Source of the DNA: Methanothrix thermoacetophila PT
Lineage (GTDB): Archaea > Halobacteriota > Methanosarcinia > Methanotrichales > Methanotrichaceae
Reading direction: 5' to 3'
NCBI RefSeq assembly: GCF_000014945.1
Contig: NC_008553.1
Location: 992,001-1,056,000, forward strand
DNA length: 64,000 nucleotides
Shown here in pieces: positions 39,551-62,109 of the stretch; the first letter of the stretch is position 1, and each line of letters starts with the position of its first letter. The notes beneath the pieces were generated by a model. That model was not told where the DNA came from, did no database searches, and was given only the letters and a program-made list of their open reading frames with translations. The position numbers were made by a program, and so were the translations under genes.

Positions 39551-40393
39551 ATGGATGAGAGAATGGATGACGAGATAGATCTGCGTGACATAATCCGTGT
39601 GCTGTGGGAGAACAGGTTCCTGGTAGTGGGCATTTTCCTGATCGCGGTGGTGGCTGCAGGCGCGGTGAGCATCATGATGCCATCGGTCTACAGGGCATCG
39701 TGCCTCGTCGCTCTCGGGAACTTCGGGGATCCGGTATACACGATTCAGTCTGGGGCATCTGAGATCCTGACGAGTGATGCGTTTGTTCTCGACCTTCTCT
39801 CCCGGCTCAACCTCAGCCTCTCTCCTGGCGAGCTCGCCGAATTTAAGGATAGGATGAGGATTGAGCCTGTTAAGGGTTCAGACCGCCTACTCAGCATCTC
39901 CATGGAGACCACGGATCCAGAAGAGGGGAAGCGGATCCTGCGGGAGATGGTCAGCTTATTCGAAGACAGGAGCAACCAGAGCTACACTGAGCAGAGGGGT
40001 CTCCTGCTGGAGCAGCTCTCAGCCACCAACCAGCTTCTGGATTCTGTGGAGGAAAGCATCAACCAGACTCACCAGGCGATGAAGGAGATTGAGGGCGCCA
40101 CGGGCGTATCTTCGCTGGAGAAGAGCATGTTGCTCTCATACAAGCTGGATTACCTGCAGAATGCAGAGTCTCAGCGTCTGGGCCTTATGGATCGTTACAT
40201 GAATCTACATAAGCAGCTCATCCTCATGAAGTCCCTGGAGATAGTCGAGGCGCCTGCGGTGCCACTCCAGCCGGTGAAGCCCAGGAGAATGCTGATCGTC
40301 GGGGTCGCAGGCATGCTCGGGCTGATGCTCGGCGTATTCGCAGCATTCCTGAGGGTGGCTCTCAGAAGAGAGGAGCAGCGCACAGGAGAGTAA
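39551..40393 (+). CDS. Wzz-like polysaccharide chain-length determinant
   Basis: 280 residues with the Wzz layout: N-terminal cytoplasmic stub DEIDLRDIIRVLWENRF, helix 1 at about 25-47, a long extracytoplasmic helical region (about 85-235) and helix 2 at about 246-268 preceded by APAVPLQPVKPRR, the Pro-rich family motif. No kinase domain. Members set polymer length with a Wzy polymerase; such a gene is at 56.3 kb. The tail of this gene is duplicated about 75 bases downstream. Confidence 0.85.
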   Translation: MDERMDDEIDLRDIIRVLWENRFLVVGIFLIAVVAAGAVSIMMPSVYRASCLVALGNFGDPVYTIQSGASEILTSDAFVLDLLSRLNLSLSPGELAEFKDRMRIEPVKGSDRLLSISMETTDPEEGKRILREMVSLFEDRSNQSYTEQRGLLLEQLSATNQLLDSVEESINQTHQAMKEIEGATGVSSLEKSMLLSYKLDYLQNAESQRLGLMDRYMNLHKQLILMKSLEIVEAPAVPLQPVKPRRMLIVGVAGMLGLMLGVFAAFLRVALRREEQRTGE

Positions 40394-40484: not shown

Positions 40485-40613
40485 TGGTGGGTGCGCTTCT
40501 GCAGGGAGATCGATGAGCTCTACGAGTTCGCCTTCCGGACCGCTCAGGCGTACGAGGACTTCAAGCACATATACCGTGAGTACCTGGAGGAGGCCGCGCG
40601 TGCTGGACCGTGA
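40482..40613 (+). pseudogene. Relic of an MntA-type nucleotidyltransferase (antitoxin)
   Basis: Only a 43-codon C-terminal piece is left: REIDELYEFAFRTAQAYEDF followed by KHIYREYLEEAA. The catalytic N-terminal half is missing. It overlaps the HepT relic that follows, as in intact MntA-HepT pairs. Assignment rests on that gene order and the C-terminal pattern. Confidence 0.5.
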
Positions 40614-41016
40614 GCGGGTACTCGCGAAGATCGATGAGCTTGAGGGATATCCGGGCGAGATGCGAGAGATCGCGCCTGCAAGCTTCGAGGATTGTATGAG
40701 GATCGGGAAAAGGAGAGCATGTGAGCGTCTTCTCCAGATCTCGATCGAGACTATTCTATATAGCTCATTCTGGTTGCATGCCTCAGGCTGGGACTGGCAG
40801 CAGATGAGGACCTGTTTGAAAAGCTCGCAAGTTCTGGGGTTCTCTCCAGAGAGGTGGTGGAGAGAGCGAAGCGGATGAAGGGATTCCGCAACATACTGGT
40901 TCGCAGATACAGGTACGTGGATGATCGTCTATGAGATGGTGACTGGGCATCTCGACGACTTTGACACCTTCAGAAAGGAGGTGCTGAATGTGCTCGCTGA
41001 CGAGCGGTGTGGCTGA
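40600..41016 (+). pseudogene. Frameshifted HepT (HEPN, DUF86) toxin gene
   Basis: Starts LDRERVLAKIDELEGYPGEM, a clear HepT N-terminus, and is readable to about 40740. It then breaks frame; a later frame continues DLFEKLASSGVLSREVVERA, and a third gives YEMVTGHLDDF...LADERCG. The HEPN ribonuclease motif RNxxVH reads RNILVRR, so the catalytic His is lost. With at least two frameshifts, an internal stop and no active site, this is a dead toxin gene. Confidence 0.75.
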
Positions 41017-41288: not shown

Positions 41289-41852
41289 ATGAAGGTAAGG
41301 GCGCTGATACGGGGCCAGAGGGTTCACGGAGTGGGTTACCGCAACCATCTTTTTTCCGAGGCCGACAGCCTGTGCATGGATGGTTTCTCCGCGCGGAATC
41401 TCAGGGAGAATGGTCTCCAGCTTGTGGAGGTCCTCTTCGAGGGAGATGATAGGCAGGTCTCGTCCTTCATGGCATTCATCAGATCCAGCTGGCCGAAGGC
41501 TGCTGAAGTCTCAGAGATATCCTTCGAGGAGTACGATGGTCGTGTCGAGAAGCTCACCAGATTCGCCATAAGGTTTCAGGCCATCCAGCTGTCCAAGGGC
41601 GTCGAGTCAATCCTGAGAATAGAAGCAAAACAGGATCAGATGCTCGAGAAGCAGGATCGAATGCTTGAAAAGCAGGATCAAATGCTTGGGAAACAGGATC
41701 TCATGCTCGAGAAGCAGGACGAGACTGTGGAGGAGTTCAGGGGAGTGAGGTCTGATCTCAAGGAGCACATGGAGAAGAGGTTCGCCAGGATCGAGGGAGA
41801 GATCGCTGAGATCAAGAGGGTGATAAGGGAGCTCGGGGGCAGCTGCGTCTGA
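41289..41852 (+). CDS. Acylphosphatase-like domain with coiled-coil heptad repeats, divergent member
   Basis: 187 residues from ATG 41289 (a GTG four codons upstream is possible). The N-terminal domain has an acylphosphatase pattern, RGQRVHGVGYRNHLF, keeping the catalytic-type Arg, and ARNLREN in the region of the catalytic Asn. Residues about 118-145 are four 7-residue repeats (MLEKQDR, MLEKQDQ, MLGKQDL, MLEKQDE). Then follow EEFRGVRSDLKEHMEKRFAR and the ending GGSCV. It is the outlying member of a five-gene family and about 400 bases from the next copy. There is no signal peptide or membrane helix. Function unknown; oligomerisation through the coiled coil is likely. Confidence 0.75.
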   Translation: MKVRALIRGQRVHGVGYRNHLFSEADSLCMDGFSARNLRENGLQLVEVLFEGDDRQVSSFMAFIRSSWPKAAEVSEISFEEYDGRVEKLTRFAIRFQAIQLSKGVESILRIEAKQDQMLEKQDRMLEKQDQMLGKQDLMLEKQDETVEEFRGVRSDLKEHMEKRFARIEGEIAEIKRVIRELGGSCV

Positions 41853-41896
41853 GCGCGATGCTTGTACCATCTGTCTGAATCGGCACACCAGATAGG

Positions 41897-42162
41897 ATGG
41901 TGGAAAGGGATGCTTACAGCGATCTGGTCTTCTGGGAAGATTTGGATCCGGACGCAGAGGAGGGAGACCTTCAGGCCCTGAAGGAGATGATCGAGCGCTG
42001 TTCCTCTGTGCTTCGAAGAGGAGCTGGACTTTGTGGAGTTTTTTCTGGAAAAGAATGCAAAGGGGGCCAGAGCGGAAGCCCGGGATCGACTGGGGCGGGG
42101 CGCTCAGGGATCTTCGTGATCGTTATACTTCGTTGAAGCTTCAGCACGAGACTGCACGATAA
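41897..42162 (+). pseudogene. Frameshifted antitoxin-like (DUF2281/VapB-type) relic
   Basis: One frame gives ELDFVEFFLEKNAKGARAEA and another gives KPGIDWGGALRDLRDRYTSL...HETAR before the stop at 42160. Together they resemble the C-terminal half of DUF2281-type antitoxins (DFVEFLLEK...WGGALRDLRDxYTSVELQ). At least one frameshift separates the parts. The preceding MVERDAYSDLVFWEDLDPDA segment is not recognised. Confidence 0.5.
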
Positions 42163-42218
42163 AGGAGCTTACGGACTGAGCGCGCTTCATGGAGCTTGCT
42201 CAGACGCCTCAGGTCAGC

Positions 42219-42227
42219 TATTTGTAT
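42219..42227 (+). promoter_or_regulatory. TATA-like element of the tandem acylphosphatase-like genes
   Basis: ctatttgta here and ttatttgta at 42878-42886, 43622-43630 and 44324-44332. Each lies about 28-32 bases before its gene's ATG, in a conserved 45-60 base spacer. Each copy appears to have its own promoter. Confidence 0.45.
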
Positions 42228-42253
42228 GAAGAGCTAGAATATGTGTGATAGAT

Positions 42254-42859
42254 ATGCGTCGTGTTGAGATCATCGCTAAGGGGGACGTCCAGAGGGTCGG
42301 CTACCGGGATGCTGTCCAGAACATCGCCAGAAGGCTCGGCGTTTCCGGCATCGTCCAGAACGTGGAACCATATGATGTGAGGATCGTCGCCGAGGGGGAG
42401 GAGGATGCCCTGAAGGAGTTCCTGAGGGCTATAAACATCCAGGAGAGGCCGATCAGGGTTGAGGAGCTTGAAGTGAGATGGGCGGATGCGACAGGTGAGT
42501 TCCAGTACTTCAGGATCCTGAGAGGCGACTGGCAGGAGGAGCTCGGCGAGAGGTTCGATGTCGCGATAAGGTATCTCCAGAGAAGCATCGAGCTGGGCGA
42601 GCAGAACCTTGCTGTGGGCAGGGAGAACCTGTCCATTGGAAGGATGATGCTCGAGAAACAGGATCAGATGCTCGAGAAACAGGATCAGATGCTCGAGAAA
42701 CAAGATGCGATGCTGGAGAAGCAGGACGAGACGATCGAGGAGCTTCGAGGGGTGAGATCCGATCTCCGTGAGCACATGGACAAACGGTTCGCCCGCATTG
42801 AGAATGAGATTGCGGAGATCAAGAGGGCGATAAGGGAGCTCGGGGGCAGCTGCATCTGA
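42254..42859 (+). CDS. Acylphosphatase-like/coiled-coil protein, tandem copy A
   Basis: 201 residues. The acylphosphatase domain is about 1-85: GDVQRVGYR keeps R18 at the catalytic position and N36 lies in GIVQNVEPYDVRI. The usual GxVQGVxFR loop has R14 where a Gly is normal. Residues 92-130 are helical (FDVAIRYLQRSIELGEQN). Then come four heptads (MLEKQDQ twice, MLEKQDA, MLEKQDE; DNA 42647-42730) and a second coiled coil, EELRGVRSDLREHMDKRFAR...EIAEIKRAIREL, ending GGSCI. No membrane or signal sequence. Near-identical to the three following genes. Function unknown. Confidence 0.8.
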   Translation: MRRVEIIAKGDVQRVGYRDAVQNIARRLGVSGIVQNVEPYDVRIVAEGEEDALKEFLRAINIQERPIRVEELEVRWADATGEFQYFRILRGDWQEELGERFDVAIRYLQRSIELGEQNLAVGRENLSIGRMMLEKQDQMLEKQDQMLEKQDAMLEKQDETIEELRGVRSDLREHMDKRFARIENEIAEIKRAIRELGGSCI

Positions 42860-42913
42860 CCTGCCCAGTGCGATCAGTTATTTGTATGAACAGCGACAAG
42901 ATGCGTGACTGAT

Positions 42914-43603
42914 ATGCTCCGGGTTGAGATCATCGCTAAGGGGGATGTCCAGAGGGTAGGATACCGGGATGCTGTCCAGAACATCGCCAGGAAGCTAAGA
43001 CTTTCAGGCACCGTCGAGAACGTGGAGCCGTACGATGTGAGGATCGTCGCCGAGGGAGAGGAGGATGCCCTGAAGGAGTTCCTGAGGGCTATAAACATCC
43101 AGGAGAGGCCGATCAGGGTTGAGGAGCTTCAGGTGAGATGGGCTGATGCGACAGGTGAGTTCCAGTACTTCAGGATCCTGAGAGGCGACTGGCAGGAAGA
43201 GCTCGGCGAGAGGTTCGATGTCGCGATAAGGTATCTCCACAGAAGCATCGAGCTGGGCGAGCAGAACCTTGCTGTGAGCAAGGAGACTCTGGCAGTGAGC
43301 AAGGAGAACCTCTCCATAGGAAGGATGATGCTCGAGAAGCAGGATCAGATGCTCGAGAAGCAGGACCGTATGCTAGAGAAGCAAGACGCAATGTTAGAGA
43401 AACAGGATCAGATGCTCGAGAAGCAGGATCAGATGCTCGAGAAACAAGATGCGATGCTGGAGAAGCAGGACGAGACTATCGAGGAGCTTCGAGGGATGAG
43501 ATCCGATCTCCGTGAGCACATGGACAAACGGTTCGCCCGCATTGAGAATGAGATTGCGGAGATCAAGAGGGCGATAAGGGAGCTCGGGGGCAGCTGCATC
43601 TGA
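42914..43603 (+). CDS. Acylphosphatase-like/coiled-coil protein, tandem copy B
   Basis: 229 residues, the longest copy. The N-terminal domain is nearly identical to copy A except the LRLSGTVENVEP segment. It has seven heptads (Q, R, A, Q, Q, A, E variants at the seventh position) and an extra 7-residue unit upstream (LAVSKET then LAVSKEN). R18 and N36 are retained, and the C-terminus is GGSCI. The spacer to the next copy is about 45 bases and carries a TATA-like element. Probably a cytoplasmic oligomer; function unknown. Confidence 0.8.
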   Translation: MLRVEIIAKGDVQRVGYRDAVQNIARKLRLSGTVENVEPYDVRIVAEGEEDALKEFLRAINIQERPIRVEELQVRWADATGEFQYFRILRGDWQEELGERFDVAIRYLHRSIELGEQNLAVSKETLAVSKENLSIGRMMLEKQDQMLEKQDRMLEKQDAMLEKQDQMLEKQDQMLEKQDAMLEKQDETIEELRGMRSDLREHMDKRFARIENEIAEIKRAIRELGGSCI

Positions 43604-43657
43604 CCTGTCCAGTGCGATCAGTTATTTGTATGAACAGCGACAAGATGCGTGACTGAT

Positions 43658-44305
43658 ATGCGCCGGGTTGAGATCATCGCTAAGGGGGATGTCCAGAGGG
43701 TCGGATACCGGGATGCTGTCCAGAACATCGCCAGGAAGCTAAGACTCTCAGGCACCGTCGAGAACGTGGAGCCGTACGATGTGAGGATCGTCGCCGAGGG
43801 GGAGGAAGCCGCACTGAAGGAGTTCGTGAATGCCGTGAACATCCAGGAGAGGCCGATCAGGGTTGAGGAGCTTCAGGTGAGATGGGCAGATGCCACAGGC
43901 GAGTTCCAGTACTTCAGGATCCTGAGAGGCGACTGGCAGGAGGAGCTCGGCGAGAGGTTCGATGTCGCGATAAGGTATCTCCAGAGAAGCATCGAGCTGG
44001 GCGAGCAGAACCTTGCTGTGGGCAGGGAGAACCTGTCCATTGGAAGGATGATGCTCGAGAAACAGGATCAGATGCTCGAGAAACAGGATCAGATGCTCGA
44101 GAAACAGGATCAGATGCTCGAGAAACAGGATCAGATGCTCGAGAAACAAGATGCGATGCTGGAGAAGCAGGACGAGACGATCGAGGAGCTTCGAGGGGTG
44201 AGATCCGATCTCCGTGAGCACATGGACAAACGGTTCGCCCGCATTGAGAATGAGATTGCGGAGATCAAGAGGGCGATAAGGGAGCTCGGGGGCAGCTGCA
44301 TCTGA
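43658..44305 (+). CDS. Acylphosphatase-like/coiled-coil protein, tandem copy C
   Basis: 215 residues with six heptads, four of them consecutive MLEKQDQ encoded by virtually identical 21-base units. The segment EEAALKEFVNAVNIQ differs from copies A and B (EEDALKEFLRAINIQ) and matches copy D in part (FVNAVNIQ), a sign of recombination among copies. The region before the heptads (NLAVGRENLSIG) matches copy A, not B. R18, N36 and the terminal GGSCI are retained. Confidence 0.8.
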   Translation: MRRVEIIAKGDVQRVGYRDAVQNIARKLRLSGTVENVEPYDVRIVAEGEEAALKEFVNAVNIQERPIRVEELQVRWADATGEFQYFRILRGDWQEELGERFDVAIRYLQRSIELGEQNLAVGRENLSIGRMMLEKQDQMLEKQDQMLEKQDQMLEKQDQMLEKQDAMLEKQDETIEELRGVRSDLREHMDKRFARIENEIAEIKRAIRELGGSCI

Positions 44306-44359
44306 CCTGTCCAGTGCGATCAGTTATTTGTATGAACAGCGACAAGATGCGTGACTGAT

Positions 44360-44986
44360 ATGCGCCGGGTTGAGATCATCGCTAAGGGGGATGTCCAGAG
44401 GGTAGGATACCGGGATGCTGTCCAGAACATCGCCAGGAAGCTGAGACTCTCAGGCACCGTCGAGAACGTGGAGCCGTACGATGTGAGGATCGTCGCCGAG
44501 GGGGAGGAGGATGCCCTGAAGGAGTTCGTGAATGCCGTGAACATCCAGGAGAGGCCGATCATGGTTGAGGAGCTTGAAGTGAGATGGGGTGATGCGACAG
44601 GTGAGTTCCAGTACTTCAGGATCCTGAGAGGCGACTGGCAGGAAGAGCTCGGCGAGAGGTTCGATGTCGCGATAAGGTATCTCCACAGAAGCATCGAGCT
44701 GGGCGAGCAGAACCTTGCTGTGAGCAAGGAGACTCTGGCAGTGAGCAAGGAGAACCTCTCCATAGGAAGGATGATGCTCGAGAAGCAGGATCAGATGCTG
44801 GAGAAGCAGGACCGCATGCTCGAGAAACAAGATGCGATGCTGGAGAAGCAGGACGAGACGATCGAGGAGCTTCGAGGGGTGAGATCAGATCTCCGTGAGC
44901 ACATGGACAAACGGTTCTCCCGTATTGAGAATGAGATCGCGGAGATCAAGAGGGCAATAAGGGAGCTCGGGGGAAGCTGTATCTGA
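44360..44986 (+). CDS. Acylphosphatase-like/coiled-coil protein, tandem copy D
   Basis: 208 residues with four heptads (Q, R, A, E). It combines FVNAVNIQ as in copy C with the doubled LAVSKET/LAVSKEN unit of copy B. Small differences (PIMVEELEVRWGD, KRFSR) show some independent drift. It ends GGSCI. It lies 164 bases before the ugd-rfb operon; whether the family is tied to polysaccharide assembly is open. Confidence 0.8.
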   Translation: MRRVEIIAKGDVQRVGYRDAVQNIARKLRLSGTVENVEPYDVRIVAEGEEDALKEFVNAVNIQERPIMVEELEVRWGDATGEFQYFRILRGDWQEELGERFDVAIRYLHRSIELGEQNLAVSKETLAVSKENLSIGRMMLEKQDQMLEKQDRMLEKQDAMLEKQDETIEELRGVRSDLREHMDKRFSRIENEIAEIKRAIRELGGSCI

Positions 44987-45150
44987 CGTTATATCGGATG
45001 TGATGAAGATCTCAGCAGATACTCCGAGGATGTGGGCAGGAATCCCTGGATGCTGTGACTCTGAATTGTGTATGGCCGGACCAGAGCGCCGGCGGCCTGC
45101 GGCCCGGGATCGTGGTCTCTCAGGTCAGGTCTTCCCGGAGGATGGATTTC

Positions 45151-46356
45151 ATGCGTATTGCCATAATCGGTGCCGGGTACGTTGGGCTCACGACAGGAGC
45201 TGCGCTCGCGTATCTGGGGCACCATGTGACATGTGTGGAGAACGACGGCAGGAAGCTTGCTTCCCTCAAAGGTGGCAGGTGCCCGATCCGGGAGCCTGGG
45301 GTGGAGGAGATCATGAGGGATGCGGGGGAGAGGCTGCTCTTCACCAGCGACATCAGTGAGGCTGTGGGCGCGGATGCGATCATGATTGCAGTGGGCACGC
45401 CATCACGCGAGGACGGGAGCGCTGATCTGCGATACGTCGAGGGCGCGGCGCGCGAGGTCGCGGAGGCGATGAGGAGTGGGCGGAGGTACACAGTGGTCAT
45501 GAAGTCGACGGTGCCTGTGGGCACAAACCGGCGCGTGAGGGATATGATCAGAGAGATCTTGAGCGAGCGGGACAGCACGGCTGAGTTCCAGGTCGTCTCC
45601 AACCCGGAGTTCCTGAGCGAGGGGCAGGCGCTGCGGGATTTCCTCTATCCAGACAGGATAGTCGTGGGCGCGGATGGCCCGGAGGGTTTGGAGGTGATGC
45701 GCAGGATGTACCTGCCGGTTCTGGAGCAGTCGTTCGAGCCGCCTGTCTGGCTCCCGAGGCCGGCGAATTACACCAGACCATCACTGGTTGCTACAGATCC
45801 GGCCAGCGCCGAGATGATAAAGTACGCGGCGAATGCGTTTCTAGCTTTAAAGGTCTCATTCATCAACGAGATGGCCGGTCTCTGCGAGCGGGTCGGAGCT
45901 GATGTGAGGGAGGTGGCTCGAGGAATCGGGCTCGACCCAAGGATAGGTCCGAGGTTCCTGCAGGCAGGAGCTGGCTGGGGCGGGAGCTGCTTTCCCAAGG
46001 ATACTGCTGCTCTGATCGCTCTCGGAAGAGATAATGGATACGAGATGCCGATAGTCTCGGCGACGCGTCTCGTGAACCAGCGGCAGCGCGTGCATATTGT
46101 TGATAAACTCGAGGATGCCCTGGATGGTTTTGCCGGAAAGACAGTGGGGGTGCTGGGGATCGCGTTCAAGCCAGGCACTGACGACATCAGGGATGCGCCG
46201 TCTCTCGATATCATGCGGCTTCTGAGGGAGAGGGGCGCGCGCGTGAGGGCACATGATCCTGCGGCGATGATGAATGCGCGCGCTGCGCTGGATGGGCTGA
46301 GGCGGTTTGTGGAGTGGATGCAGTCTTACAATGAGGGCACGACATGCGCATCCTGA
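45151..46356 (+). CDS. UDP-glucose/GDP-mannose dehydrogenase family protein, C-terminus shortened
   Basis: 401 residues from the ATG at 45151, which has GGAGG at the right distance. The Rossmann start is MRIAIIGAGYVGLTTGAALA; the catalytic Cys is in GWGGSCFPKDTAAL, and FKPGTDDIRDAPSLDI marks the C-terminal domain. The protein then ends NARAALDGLRRFVEWM and a short unrelated tail. The usual ADAVVVVTEWxEF segment, about 30 residues, is missing. It overlaps rfbD by 13 bases, so the deletion may have fused the reading frame into the start of rfbD. It would oxidise an NDP-sugar to the uronic acid. Activity is uncertain because of the truncation. Confidence 0.82.
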   Translation: MRIAIIGAGYVGLTTGAALAYLGHHVTCVENDGRKLASLKGGRCPIREPGVEEIMRDAGERLLFTSDISEAVGADAIMIAVGTPSREDGSADLRYVEGAAREVAEAMRSGRRYTVVMKSTVPVGTNRRVRDMIREILSERDSTAEFQVVSNPEFLSEGQALRDFLYPDRIVVGADGPEGLEVMRRMYLPVLEQSFEPPVWLPRPANYTRPSLVATDPASAEMIKYAANAFLALKVSFINEMAGLCERVGADVREVARGIGLDPRIGPRFLQAGAGWGGSCFPKDTAALIALGRDNGYEMPIVSATRLVNQRQRVHIVDKLEDALDGFAGKTVGVLGIAFKPGTDDIRDAPSLDIMRLLRERGARVRAHDPAAMMNARAALDGLRRFVEWMQSYNEGTTCAS

Positions 46357-47189
46357 TCTTCGGCGCTGAGGGCCAGCTCGGCACAGAGCTGTGCAGGGTT
46401 CTGGGGCATCATGATTTAGCTCCTTTCTCTCACATAGAGGCGGACGTTGCAGATCTGGGTGCTGTTTTAAGGCAGACGGAGCGCATCAGGCCTGACGTCA
46501 TCATAAACTCTGCTGCATACACAGATGTCGATGGATGCGAGTCTGCCCGGGATAAAGCGGTTCTTGTGAACGCAATTGGCGCCAGAAATGCTGCAATCGC
46601 AGCCCGCAGGGCTGGGGCGAAGTTTGTGCACATCAGCACGGATTACGTCTTCGACGGGAAAAAGGATGGGCCTTACGTTGAGTACGACCCGCCGAATCCG
46701 CTAAACGTCTACGGCTGGTCGAAGCTTCTTGGAGAGAGAATGGTTTTAGAGCAGAATCCAGACAGCTTCATACTCAGAGTGGCCTGGCTTTATGGTCCTG
46801 CAGGCAGAAACTTCGTGAAGACCATGCTCTCGCTCGCGCGAGCAAGAGACGAGCTCAGGGTTGTAAATGACCAGCGGGGCACACCGACGTTCGCGGGCGA
46901 TGTCGCGAATCAGATCGATTTGCTCATCGAAACTGAAAGCTATGGTTTATACCACTGCACATCCCAGGGAGAATGCACCTGGTATGAGTTCGCAGTTGAG
47001 ATATTCCGGCTTCTCGGCATGGATCTCAGGGTGGTGCCTGTGAGCACCTCTGAGTTCCCGCGGCCTGCAAGACGTCCTGCGAACTCCGTTCTGGATAACC
47101 TTCTTTTGCGAGTTCAGGGCATGGATATCATGCCGCACTGGAGGGATTCTTTGAGGGACCACATAAGTGAGGTGGCTGGGCGGGTATGA
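46344..47189 (+). CDS. rfbD: dTDP-4-dehydrorhamnose reductase
   Basis: 281 residues. N-terminal [21 protein letters not shown] binds [18 protein letters not shown] and the catalytic YxxxK in [11 protein letters not shown] are intact; [14 protein letters not shown] and QRGTPTF follow. It makes dTDP-L-rhamnose in the last step of the pathway. The start overlaps the dehydrogenase gene by 13 bases, and rfbA starts within its stop. The four rfb genes for the whole pathway are contiguous. Confidence 0.95.
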
Positions 47190-48250
47190 AGGCGCTTGTT
47201 CTCTCAGGAGGGAAGGGCACGCGGCTGCGGCCGCTAACGTACACGATGACGAAGCAGCTCGTGCCGGTGGCAAACAGGCCGATACTCCATTACGCGATGG
47301 ATCAGATCAGGAGCGCGGGCATAGAGGACGTCGGGGTGATCATAGCCCCCGAGACGGGTGAGCAGGTGAAGGAGTCACTGGCTTCAAACCCCTGGAACTT
47401 CAACCTCGAGTTCATACCGCAGGACGCGCCCAGAGGGCTTGCGCACGCGGTGAAGGTCGCCCAGGACTTTCTGGAGGACGACCCGTTCCTCATGTACCTG
47501 GGCGACAACCTGATCGGGGAGAGCATCGTCCCGTTCGTCAGGGATTTTGAGAGTGGCGGATCAGATGCGATGATACTCCTGAAGGAGGTCGAGGATCCCA
47601 GGATGTTCGGGGTCGCGGAGGTCGATGCGTCAGGGAACGTGCGGCGGCTCGTGGAGAAGCCGAAGGATCCGCCATCGAACCTTGCTCTTGTCGGCGTTTA
47701 CCTCTTCTCCCCGGCAATTCATGATGCAGTATCTGAGATCAAACCGTCCTGGAGGGGTGAGCTCGAGATCACGGATGCGATCCAGCGGCTCCTCGACAAG
47801 GGATTGAGGGTGAAAAGCTACATACTCAGGAGATGGTGGCTCGACACGGGCAAGAAGGACGACCTGCTTGAGGCGAACCGCGTTGTCCTGGACGAGCTCG
47901 TGGACGAGGACATCCAGGGGGAGATCGACGGCAGGAGCAGGGTCGTGGGCAGGGTCTCTCTCGCGAGGGGCGCGCGTGTTATCGAGAGCACGGTCCGGGG
48001 GCCCGCGGTCATAGGCGAGGGCGCTGTGATAAGGGGATCGTTCATAGGCCCATACACAAGCATCGGTCGGGGATGTGTTGTGGAGAGCTCAGCGATCGAG
48101 CACTCCGTGGTCCTGGATGGTGTGGTGATCAGAAACATAGACAGGCTCGAGGACAGCGTGATCGGGAGGAACACTGTTGTCTCCAGGGAGAGGATGAACA
48201 GCCAGGCTCTGAGGCTGATGATAGGAGACGACGCAGAGGTGAGGTTCTGA
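47186..48250 (+). CDS. rfbA: Glucose-1-phosphate thymidylyltransferase, long archaeal form
   Basis: 354 residues, longer than the bacterial RmlA (about 290). The nucleotidyltransferase signature is [21 protein letters not shown] at the N-terminus. The extra C-terminal part (about 250-340) is a left-handed beta-helix with hexapeptide-like repeats ([32 protein letters not shown]). It makes dTDP-glucose from glucose 1-phosphate and dTTP. The start overlaps the rfbD stop (ATGA). The helix may confer oligomerisation or an acetyltransferase-like surface; no acetyl-CoA activity is claimed. Confidence 0.93.
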
Positions 48251-48813
48251 TGCCGTTCAGCTTCAAGAGACTTGATATTTATGATGTGATCCTGATCGAG
48301 CCCAGGGTATTCAGGGACGAGCGCGGGTTCTTCATGGAGAGCTACAAGCACTCGGAGTTCGCTGCGTTCGGAATAAAAGAGAGGTTCGTCCAGGACAACC
48401 ACTCTCGCTCGAGAAGGGGTGTTCTGAGGGGGCTTCACTACCAGAACCCGCCGAGGGCTCAGGGTAAGCTCGTTCGCGCTGTGAGTGGCGAGATATTCGA
48501 TGTCGCTGTGGATATCAGGAGGGGCTCGCCGACGTACGGGAGATGGGTTGGCGTTAATCTCTCCGAGGAGAACATGAGGATGCTCTACATACCCCCTGGA
48601 TTCGCCCATGGTTTCATGACGCTCAGCGATGTGGCCGATGTCATGTACAAGACCACGGACGAGTACTCGCCGGAGCATGAGGCCGGGATCATATGGAACG
48701 ATCCCGGGATCGGGATTGAGTGGCCGGCGTCCAGACCGGTGCTCTCGCCCAGAGATGCGAAATGGCCTGGCCTGCGGGACGCTGTGAACGGTTTTGTTTA
48801 TGAGGGGAGATGA
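48250..48813 (+). CDS. rfbC: dTDP-4-dehydrorhamnose 3,5-epimerase
   Basis: 187 residues from the ATG that overlaps the rfbA stop. The cupin family core is intact: FFMESYKHSEFAAFGI, QDNHSRSRRGVLRGLHYQ (catalytic His), GEIFDVAVDIRRGSPTYG and YIPPGFAHGFMTLSD. The C-terminus (WNDPGIGIEWP) is standard. An upstream in-frame start at 48073 would read through rfbA and is not used. Confidence 0.95.
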   Translation: MPFSFKRLDIYDVILIEPRVFRDERGFFMESYKHSEFAAFGIKERFVQDNHSRSRRGVLRGLHYQNPPRAQGKLVRAVSGEIFDVAVDIRRGSPTYGRWVGVNLSEENMRMLYIPPGFAHGFMTLSDVADVMYKTTDEYSPEHEAGIIWNDPGIGIEWPASRPVLSPRDAKWPGLRDAVNGFVYEGR

Positions 48814-49844
48814 TGAGGCTTCTGGTCACTGGCGGCTGCGGGTTCATAGGGAGCAACTTCATACATTACGCGCTCAGGGAGCATGACGACTGGGAGGTCG
48901 TGAATCTCGACAGGCTGACGTACGCCGGGAACCCTGCGAACCTTAGTGATATCGAGGGGGATGAGAGGTACAGGTTTGTGAGGGGGGATATCGCGGACAG
49001 GGATCTTGTGGATGGTCTCTTCAGGGATGGGCTGGACGCGGTGGTGAACTTCGCGGCTGAGACCCATGTTGACAGGAGCATCCTCGACCCATCGCCGTTC
49101 ATAGATACGAACGTGAGGGGCACGCAGGTGCTGCTCGAGGCTGCGAGGAATCACGATGTGGGGAGGTTCGTTCACATATCCACAGACGAGGTCTACGGGT
49201 CCGTGACTGAGGGAAGGTTCACAGAGGACTCGCCTCTGAGGCCTAACAGCCCGTATGCGGCGAGCAAGGCAGCTGCAGATCTCCTCTGCAGGGCGTACCA
49301 CATCTCCTACGGCGTGCCTGTGATGGTCACGCGGAGCTCGAACAACTACGGGCCGTACCAGTTCCCTGAGAAGCTCATACCGCTGATGATAAGAAACGCT
49401 CTGGCTGGAATGGATCTTCCTGTCTATGGAGAGGGCGCGCAGGTCCGGGACTGGCTCTATGTGGAGGACAACTGCAGGGCGATCGGGGTGGTGCTAATGA
49501 AGGGCAGGCCCGGGGAGATCTACAACATCGGAGGTGGATCTGAGAGGAGGAACATCGAGGTTGTGGAGATGATCTGCAGGGTGCTTGGAGAAAGATTGAA
49601 TAGAGATCCTGAGGATTTTAAGAGACTGATAAAGCACATCCGCGATCCCAGGGGCGCGGCCCATGATTTCAGGTACGCGCTCGAGTGCTCTAAGATGAGA
49701 GGGCTCGGCTGGATGCCGCAGGTCACGTTCGAGGATGGGCTGGCCCGGACTGTGGACTGGTATCTTGCGAACCAGGACTGGGTCGAGGGCGTGATAACAG
49801 GGGAGTACCTGGAGTACTGCCGGAGGGTGTATGGGGACGGCTGA
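48810..49844 (+). CDS. rfbB: dTDP-glucose 4,6-dehydratase
   Basis: 344 residues. Short-chain dehydrogenase features: GGCGFIGSNFIHYAL, NFAAETHVDRSI, ISTDEVYGSVTEG (catalytic Thr-Asp-Glu) and SPYAASKAAADLL (YxxxK). It converts dTDP-glucose to the 4-keto-6-deoxy sugar. Last gene of the operon, overlapping rfbC by 4 bases. The close packing of all five genes suggests one transcript starting near 45.1 kb. Confidence 0.96.
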   Translation: MMRLLVTGGCGFIGSNFIHYALREHDDWEVVNLDRLTYAGNPANLSDIEGDERYRFVRGDIADRDLVDGLFRDGLDAVVNFAAETHVDRSILDPSPFIDTNVRGTQVLLEAARNHDVGRFVHISTDEVYGSVTEGRFTEDSPLRPNSPYAASKAAADLLCRAYHISYGVPVMVTRSSNNYGPYQFPEKLIPLMIRNALAGMDLPVYGEGAQVRDWLYVEDNCRAIGVVLMKGRPGEIYNIGGGSERRNIEVVEMICRVLGERLNRDPEDFKRLIKHIRDPRGAAHDFRYALECSKMRGLGWMPQVTFEDGLARTVDWYLANQDWVEGVITGEYLEYCRRVYGDG

Positions 49845-59352: not shown

Positions 59353-59832
59353 ATGGGTAGAAAGAGAGTTCATGAAGTGAGTTTGAAAGAAGGCGAACGA
59401 GATGAGCTTGAGAGTTTCATCAGGAAGGGTAAAGCCTCCGCGAGGAGTCTGACGCGTGCGAGGATACTGCTTCTTGCGGATGATGGCAGGAGTGACAAAG
59501 AGATAGTAGATGTGTTGAAGGTTTGCAGGGGTACGGTGCGTAATACACGTGACAGGTACTGGAAGGGTGGTCTTGATTGCGCGCTGAATGAGAAGCCGCG
59601 GAGTGGAGCACCATCCAAGATAGATGGGCGGGTTGAAGCTGAGCTGACGCTTCTTGCGTGCTCCGATCCACCAGACGGCAGATCGAGATGGACTGTCATG
59701 CTTCTCAGAGATAAGCTTGTTGAGATGGGCGTTGTGGATTCGATATCTCATATGACAGTGTACAGGACATTGAAAAAAAAAAAAAAAAAAAAAGCTCAAG
59801 CCATGGCTCGAGAAGAGGTGGTGTATAGGTAA
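59353..59832 (+). CDS. IS630-family transposase, N-terminal frame (interrupted by poly-A)
   Basis: The 5' frame encodes the helix-turn-helix part: KASARSLTRARILLLADDGR, DKEIVDVLKVCRGTVRNTRDRY and SKIDGRVEAELTLL, up to MTVYRTLKK at the 21-A run 59773-59793. Beyond it this frame gives unrelated residues to a stop at 59832. The true continuation (KLKPWLEKRWCIGNITG) is in another frame, so one base more or less in the run is needed to restore a full transposase. Slippage on the run could do this. Confidence 0.8.
   Translation: MGRKRVHEVSLKEGERDELESFIRKGKASARSLTRARILLLADDGRSDKEIVDVLKVCRGTVRNTRDRYWKGGLDCALNEKPRSGAPSKIDGRVEAELTLLACSDPPDGRSRWTVMLLRDKLVEMGVVDSISHMTVYRTLKKKKKKKAQAMAREEVVYR
59773..59793 (+). 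promoter_or_regulatory. Run of 21 A inside the transposase gene (possible slippage site)
   Basis: The run occupies exactly seven Lys codons in the upstream frame. The downstream frame needs a run length of 20 or 23. A homopolymer this long is prone to RNA or DNA polymerase slippage, and to sequencing error. Confidence 0.6.
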
Positions 59833-60481
59833 CATCACGGGCGACTTCATATGGCATATGGAGGACGTGCTGGATGTTTACGAGCAGCCCTATGACCCGA
59901 AGCGTCCTGTGATCTGTTTTGACGAAAGAACATGTCAGCTGTTAGGCGATACGATAGTCCCGATACCCATGAAGCCAGGCAGCCCGAGGAAGGAACATTA
60001 CGAGTACGAGCGCAACGGCACTTGCTGCGTATTCATGGCGTTTGAACCTCTTGCTGGCAGAGGGATTGTCTCTGTCAGGGAACGTCGAACAAAGATCGAT
60101 TATGCAGAGTTCATGGTGGATCTCGCGAATCAGTATCCGGATGCAGAGAAGATCATCGTCGTCCAGGACAACCTCAATACTCACACCATGGGCTCATTCT
60201 ATGATGCAATGCCTCCAGATGACGCTTTCAAGCTCGCAAAACAGTTTGAGTTCAATTACACTCCAAAAAAGGGTAGCTGGCTCAACATGGCTGAGATAGA
60301 GCTATCGGCATTATCAAAACAGTGCCTCGACCGGAGAATACCTGACATCAACAAACTGAGAGACGAAATCAATATCTGGCAACAGGAACGAAATGCAATC
60401 CGCGCAACTGTACAGTGGAAGTTCAGCAAAGATAACGCCAGAGCAAAACTCAAACGACACTACAATACGGTTAAAAATTAA
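59794..60481 (+). CDS. IS630-family transposase, catalytic C-terminal frame
   Basis: This frame is open from the poly-A run onward: KPWLEKRWCIGNITGDFIWH, then the DDE domain. Catalytic residues: Asp in VICFDERTCQ, Asp in VVQDNLNTH and Glu in GSWLNMAEIELSAL. The end PKKGSWLNMAEIE...ARAKLKRHY is typical of IS630. The first ATG in frame (59858) lies inside the domain linker, so independent translation would lack the DNA-binding part. Probably expressed only as a frameshifted fusion. Confidence 0.82.
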
Positions 60482-61137: not shown

Positions 61138-62109
61138 GTAGCTTTATATTCATATATTCTCTCTTATTCTTTCAAGAATCTTCGTCATAATGTTATACGC
61201 TTAAAATTATAGTATAAAATGTGAACATCCTGCGTACTTCGCGAATCATGCCTTCCTTCGAAGTGGCCCTCACAGTCTCGCCAAATATCCTCTTAATTGC
61301 TGAGAATACACTTTCAGCCGCCCACCTTCTTCCATATCCATGCACAATTTTCCAACTGTGGTATCCATACTTCATAAACTCAAGAACTGGTTCGGCTCTG
61401 GACGAGCCTGCTTTGACGATAGCATTCTTCCTGATCTTGATTCCAGGCATATCTACGCCCTTCTCTTTCATGAAATCGAATACCCCCTCCTTATCATAAG
61501 CTCCATCCATCAGTGAATCTTCAAGCTTAACATCTTCCAGCAGCGGTTTTACCATCTCATGATCAGTGACGGTCTCATCGGTTATCTCGAAGGTTACGGG
61601 CTTCCTTGTTTCAACATCTACGGCGATATGCACTTTTATCCAGCCTCTGCGTTCAACACCATGACTTTCTCTCATCCAGTCGCCTCTATTCGTAACCTTC
61701 ATTCCTGTTGAGTCAACTGCGACCACTAAATCGTTATCAGGTATTGGAATATTCAACTCCAAATTCGTAATCCTCTGCCATAATGTCGAATAATCGGCAG
61801 CCAACAGCCCAGGAACAAATCCGCTTAGCGCCTGAATAAATCCTTCGAGCTGCCTGTATGGTAAATGAAGAAAGGCGTATGCTAAACCACAAAATTGAAT
61901 AAATGTCTCAGGATAGCGATAGGGTCTGCCATTCTTGTTCTTATTCATCTTCAGTAGCTCTTCATCCCAATTATTCACAAAGTCAGTGCTAAGGTAAAAC
62001 CATCCTCGCCTAACCAATTTCTCATTGTATTCGCGCCAATTGCGGTTATCCTCATAGGCCATGAAATATATTATATATTTTCCTAGTTTAAATAGTTATC
62101 CAACACAGC
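61124..62109 (-). mobile_element. IS5-family insertion sequence
   Basis: 986 bp with perfect 14-base inverted ends (gctgtgttggataa and ttatccaacacagc). It carries one intact transposase gene on the minus strand. The target duplication is unclear because the ends begin with gc, which may itself be the duplicated target. Confidence 0.85.
61193..62062 (-). CDS. IS5-family transposase
   Basis: 289 residues, apparently intact. DDE residues: Asp in LVVAVDSTGMKVTNRG, Asp in DSLMDGAYDKEG, Glu in RRWAAESVFSAIKRIFGE. An N-terminal region GRPYRYPETFIQFCGLAYAF is typical of the group. It catalyses cut-and-paste movement of the 986-bp element. The ATG at 62062 lies 34 bases inside the right end. AT-rich, like the surrounding island. 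Confidence 0.92.
   Translation of the reverse strand: MAYEDNRNWREYNEKLVRRGWFYLSTDFVNNWDEELLKMNKNKNGRPYRYPETFIQFCGLAYAFLHLPYRQLEGFIQALSGFVPGLLAADYSTLWQRITNLELNIPIPDNDLVVAVDSTGMKVTNRGDWMRESHGVERRGWIKVHIAVDVETRKPVTFEITDETVTDHEMVKPLLEDVKLEDSLMDGAYDKEGVFDFMKEKGVDMPGIKIRKNAIVKAGSSRAEPVLEFMKYGYHSWKIVHGYGRRWAAESVFSAIKRIFGETVRATSKEGMIREVRRMFTFYTIILSV

Follow-up and report, generated by a model that had tools for sequence, protein, structure and literature searches.

A locus of Methanothrix thermoacetophila PT encodes five proteins in which an acylphosphatase (AcP) head is joined to a coiled-coil stalk of variable length, and these proteins belong to a broadly archaeal, apparently undescribed variant of acylphosphatase. 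With about even confidence, we read them as stalked, multivalent, loop-remodelled acylphosphatases: oligomeric rods, presumably located in the cytosol, whose heads would still bind ligand and which, more tentatively, would have a glycan role at a subset of loci. Few small enzymes or folding models have been studied as thoroughly as AcP, whose physiological role is uncertain. A large archaeal lineage with a retained catalytic pair, two fixed loop rewrites and a length-variable rod may thus give a handle on AcP recognition, one that the automatic annotation name 'acylphosphatase' would mask.

The window, that is, the whole stretch of 64,000 nucleotides that was analyzed, covers positions 992001-1056000 of a complete genome of 1,879,471 bp. 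Five AcP-coil genes occupy 41289-44986 on its forward (+) strand, the last four in tight tandem. Copy 1 (41289..41852), assigned to type B by its tree clade, carries a divergent AcP head, about four MLEKQDx heptads and a C-terminal coil resembling that of type A. The type A copies, numbered 2 (42254..42859), 3 (42914..43603), 4 (43658..44305) and 5 (44360..44986), contain 4, 7, 6 and 4 heptads, respectively. Translation probably starts at the ATGs at 41289, 42254, 42914, 43658 and 44360 rather than at upstream GTGs, since homologues begin with MKRVEI or MQRAEI. The products are 187-229 aa long, of which about 90-130 residues form the helix. TRF delimits the heptads as 21-bp arrays on the same strand, at 41631..41719 in copy 1, 42646..42726 in copy 2, 43327..43470 in copy 3, 44050..44172 in copy 4 and 44773..44853 in copy 5. 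In the AcP part, DNA identity among copies 2-5 is 90-96%. The short intergenic spacers were duplicated together with the genes: the 48-bp spacer between copies 2 and 3 (42857..42904, stop codon included) is nearly identical to those at 43601-43648 and 44303-44350, with one base of difference between them. This arrangement agrees with the first-pass annotation, which had described five open reading frames, four of them in tandem with conserved spacers, and a length diversity from copy to copy; the conserved promoters also named there are putative, the spacers having been copied with the genes. A short ORF at 41897-42136, between copies 1 and 2, has no Pfam match; its start is shared with the closest relative (genome G045) and its frame differs further on.

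All five copies match the acylphosphatase profile PF00708 at 60.9-71.7 bits against a cut-off of 22.5, with E-values of the order of 1e-16 to 6e-20 (1.5e-16, 6.1e-20, 1e-19, 2.8e-19 and 2.2e-18 for copies 1 to 5). A sixth and last AcP domain of the genome belongs to an ordinary solo protein of about 90 residues. The AF2 model of copy 2, obtained from a 19-row family alignment and the 204-residue GTG-start translation, adopts the AcP fold at residues 1-92, mostly with pLDDT of about 90, and continues as one helix at 96-198; its nearest solved structure according to Foldseek is the Sulfolobus solfataricus AcP 2bjd (E 1e-10, TM 0.94 by target length). Copy 1 is modelled with the same plan of head and helix (pLDDT 85) and matches the P. 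horikoshii AcP 1w2i (E 1.2e-6). The alpha/beta (ferredoxin-like) AcP fold is found in both modelled copies by AF2 and Foldseek, so that the acylphosphatase-like domain proposed at first pass, and its junction to a coiled coil of MLEKQDx heptads, are borne out by the profile, the 21-bp arrays and the modelled helix.

Canonical AcPs (PF00708; 2bjd, 1w2i) share with the window proteins the fold, the catalytic Arg in GYR and the catalytic Asn; however, they are stand-alone proteins of about 90 aa, whereas the window proteins reach about 200 aa, bear a long helical stalk and have many paralogues. In HypF, too, the N-terminal part of a larger protein has an AcP fold (Foldseek match 3vth), but the remaining domains of HypF are absent from the window proteins, which score 16-32 bits against TIGR00143, for a cut-off of 466. 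Almost all of the 169 fused proteins from both subfamilies retain the catalytic Arg and Asn; visual inspection of the exceptions left true losses of Arg in L110 and of Asn in L016. The phosphate loop follows another course. While 15 of 16 solo AcPs have VQG, the fused family has VQ[R/K] in type A (74 of 86) or VH in type B (66 of 71, the next residue being D, E or N in 56), and the Gly of the canonical GxVQGV loop is replaced in 84 of 86 type A and 58 of 71 type B sequences. Since Arg and Asn are near-invariant and loop signatures differ between type A, type B and solo AcPs, the active-site pair is constrained while the ligand loop has been rewritten subfamily by subfamily.

This pattern also bears on a possible, though doubtful, alternative in which the proteins would be non-catalytic ligand sensors or scaffolds, the head binding a phosphorylated ligand through Arg and Asn and the rod relaying the signal or clustering partners. 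The loss of the phosphate-loop Gly in most members of both subfamilies is in its favor, as are the ordinary solo AcP present in the same genome and the many paralogues, which suggest a diversified specificity: in the complete genome G016, taken as M. soehngenii, we count 14 PF00708 matches, 11 of them in long frames. Yet pure scaffolding would not need both catalytic residues, and these are near-invariant over two deep clades. The sensor or scaffold function suggested in the first-pass annotation takes too little account of the conserved Arg and Asn.

Each protein consists of an AcP head and one helix of about 100 residues. Substitution patterns indicate that both the tandem copies and the heptads are under purifying selection: the 21 heptad units show a pooled synonymous difference (pS) of 0.79 for a non-synonymous difference (pN) of 0.004, and dN/dS of the AcP part between tandem copies is 0.13-0.43, so that the repeat is not a product of chance. 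In type A, the distance from the head to the C-terminal motif varies from 41 to 153 residues. Taken modulo 7, 36 of 62 distances fall into one class and 17 of 62 into the class 4 away (P ~1e-14, counting sequences rather than independent events, among those with recognizable motifs, which many lacked), and nothing comparable is seen with moduli 5, 6, 8, 9 or 11. The register is kept, hence stalk length changes in whole heptads; the class 4 away fits an a/d core seam (3.5 residues). The hydrophobic periodicity of the stalk is 3.5 (p 0.0004), and a heptad register along the helix is thus seen in both the modulo-7 and the period tests. The helix was modelled as a monomer (pLDDT 48-87), and heptads of L with Q at d form a weak core. 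The repeated unit itself varies: the last copy in G045 has expanded a different heptad, LAVSKEx, and repeats of seven residues in other lineages include MKEMKGD and DSLGGKI. Matches of the stalk to CdvA-like and other coiled-coil Pfam families are below cut-off and reflect coil composition only.

The AcP-domain tree indicates that the family comprises two deep subfamilies. Type B, to which copy 1 belongs, is a clade of 38 rows with a support of 100; type A (31 rows and one solo AcP), with copies 2-5, lies on the side of ordinary AcPs. The tree rests on 104 columns and its inner forks are weak. Several genomes have a type A gene next to a type B gene, and both orders occur. Over its last 46 residues, copy 1 shares 93% identity with the coil of a type A protein from the same genus (L037), whereas the two heads share 28%; coil modules have thus been exchanged between subfamilies. 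Within the tandem, the C-termini of copies 2 and 4 are identical and their heads differ at 10% of bases, a pattern that points to partial conversion. The window tandem probably arose when a single type A gene was recently duplicated, accompanied by heptad slippage and a partial homogenization of copies. In G045, the corresponding tandem contains an assembly gap of N (L073, 11407-12452), as expected for a hard-to-assemble repeat; an apparent giant fusion of 740 aa in this genome was discarded, as its frame crosses the 1,046-base run of N.

Under the reading that we favor, of stalked and multivalent acylphosphatases, heptads would hold the helices together in a parallel oligomer measuring some 15-20 nm; several heads would be clustered at one extremity of the rod, and the conserved C-terminal coil would serve for assembly or docking at the other. 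Type A and type B chains may co-assemble, because the coil module has passed between subfamilies. The heads would bind, and probably hydrolyze, an acyl phosphate or similar ligand, presumably other than the usual one given that the phosphate loop is remodelled in each subfamily. The AcP cage of Vibrio cholerae (4hi2, 6krb, as given by the structure titles) is likewise a multivalent AcP assembly; however, it is built from small solo AcP chains, whereas in the window proteins a coiled-coil stalk would multimerize the heads.

The fusion is by no means unique to this locus. Relatives are present in 46 of 50 Methanotrichaceae genomes; the figures of up to 17-19 matches per genome are overcounts, as one gene can yield two. 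Of the 394 genomes from the phylum, 72 have type B at E<=1e-25, and for type A the figure of 297 of 394 is an upper bound that counts in solo AcPs. Members were also detected in the phylum to which the Nitrososphaeria record belongs, where 13 among 200 genomes have a match at E<=1e-30. This multi-copy family is present in Methanotrichaceae, Methanomicrobiales, Methanosarcina, Archaeoglobaceae, Thermoproteota and other archaeal records. Widespread as it is, the AcP-coiled-coil fusion was not found described in our search of open-licence papers. An apparent bacterial member (L047, from a Bacteroidetes record) is identical to a Methanomicrobiales protein (L048) and probably reflects a binning error or mis-binned contig. 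Phages, plasmids and viral contigs returned no match, the type A profile being left out of the viral-contig scan, and we rejected an origin as phage, plasmid or virus cargo.

Such a scattered family might also consist of ordinary cytosolic AcPs, the coil serving stability or solubility only, the tandem being a neutral dosage amplification and its position incidental. Solo AcPs do occur throughout, most family loci in G016 are scattered without a conserved partner, and oligomer stability could serve a thermophile. We nevertheless consider this unlikely: loop remodelling in each subfamily, register-locked lengths and coil exchange between heads suggest that the stalk has a role.

The window locus lies in a glycan gene cluster, between Wzz and dTDP-rhamnose genes as first described. 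Upstream are genes for a family 4 glycosyl transferase and for a Wzz-type chain-length determinant (39551..40393, +; PF02706 4.4e-10); downstream are a UDP-glucose/GDP-mannose dehydrogenase (ORF as listed 45055..46356, +; PF03721 7.1e-56, profile match from residue 33), the dTDP-rhamnose operon rmlD, rmlA, rmlC, rmlB (46344..49844, +) and a flippase. In the operon, rmlD, rmlA and rmlB are supported by RmlD, NTP_transferase and GDP_Man_Dehyd matches, and rmlC is named from sequence alone. A syntenic locus with the same gene arrangement exists in G045.

Over 34 family loci from 17 complete genomes, a UDP-sugar dehydrogenase is found within 3 kb of 5 loci, window included, for 0.14 expected; 4 are observed for 0.14 expected when the window is left out (P 1e-5), and 2 for 0.12 expected when one genome per genus is kept (P 0.007). 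Such neighbors also occur in Methanoculleus-like genomes and elsewhere. Within 10 kb, 9 loci have a glycan marker of any kind, for 2.3 expected (P 3e-4), and proximity of glycosyltransferases or flippases is weak for each alone (P 0.03 at 10 kb), the PF00534 part of these counts being in both cases at least that given. Neighbor clustering across family loci revealed no universal conserved neighbor; clusters found at part of the loci are mainly glycosyltransferases, UDP-sugar dehydrogenases, NDP-sugar enzymes and flippases. Most Methanotrichaceae copies are away from glycan genes, and most G016 loci have none nearby. The association with glycan genes is real but partial, and the family's link to envelope glycans is suggestive. 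The surface-assembly role raised in the first-pass annotation is thus partly supported by gene context, while inspection by eye noticed neither signal peptide nor membrane helix in AcP-coil proteins.

The stalked acylphosphatases may then act, more tentatively, beside sugar-nucleotide and envelope-glycan enzymes at a subset of loci, the window included. A fuller scheme, improbable as a whole, would make the two subfamilies an archaeal toolkit of hetero-oligomeric AcP rods with remodelled specificity, where the number of heptads would set how far the head lies from the dock and sugar-nucleotide or envelope-glycan enzymes would be the targets in some lineages; if true, the rods would be stalked regulators or enzymes of a new class. 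That the rods are rulers in envelope glycan assembly, their lengths setting spacing or chain length, is very improbable: Wzz and dehydrogenase neighbors at the window and G045 loci, and dehydrogenase neighbors elsewhere, are offset by the apparent lack of a membrane anchor, the many members without nearby glycan genes and the thin support per genus. Wzz proteins themselves resemble AcP-coil proteins in their long helices and adjoin them here, but the two are unrelated in sequence, with no PF02706 match in the latter.

Two further features were observed around the glycan cluster. Between wzz and copy 1, a broken HepT-like gene extends over more than one reading frame (40560-41015; PF01934 E 1.3e-9 for one fragment) and is probably what remains of a decayed toxin-antitoxin system. 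Two sets of transposase-like frames, at 59353-60481 (+) and 61193-62062 (-), lie at the far end of the cluster, as judged from the sequence only.
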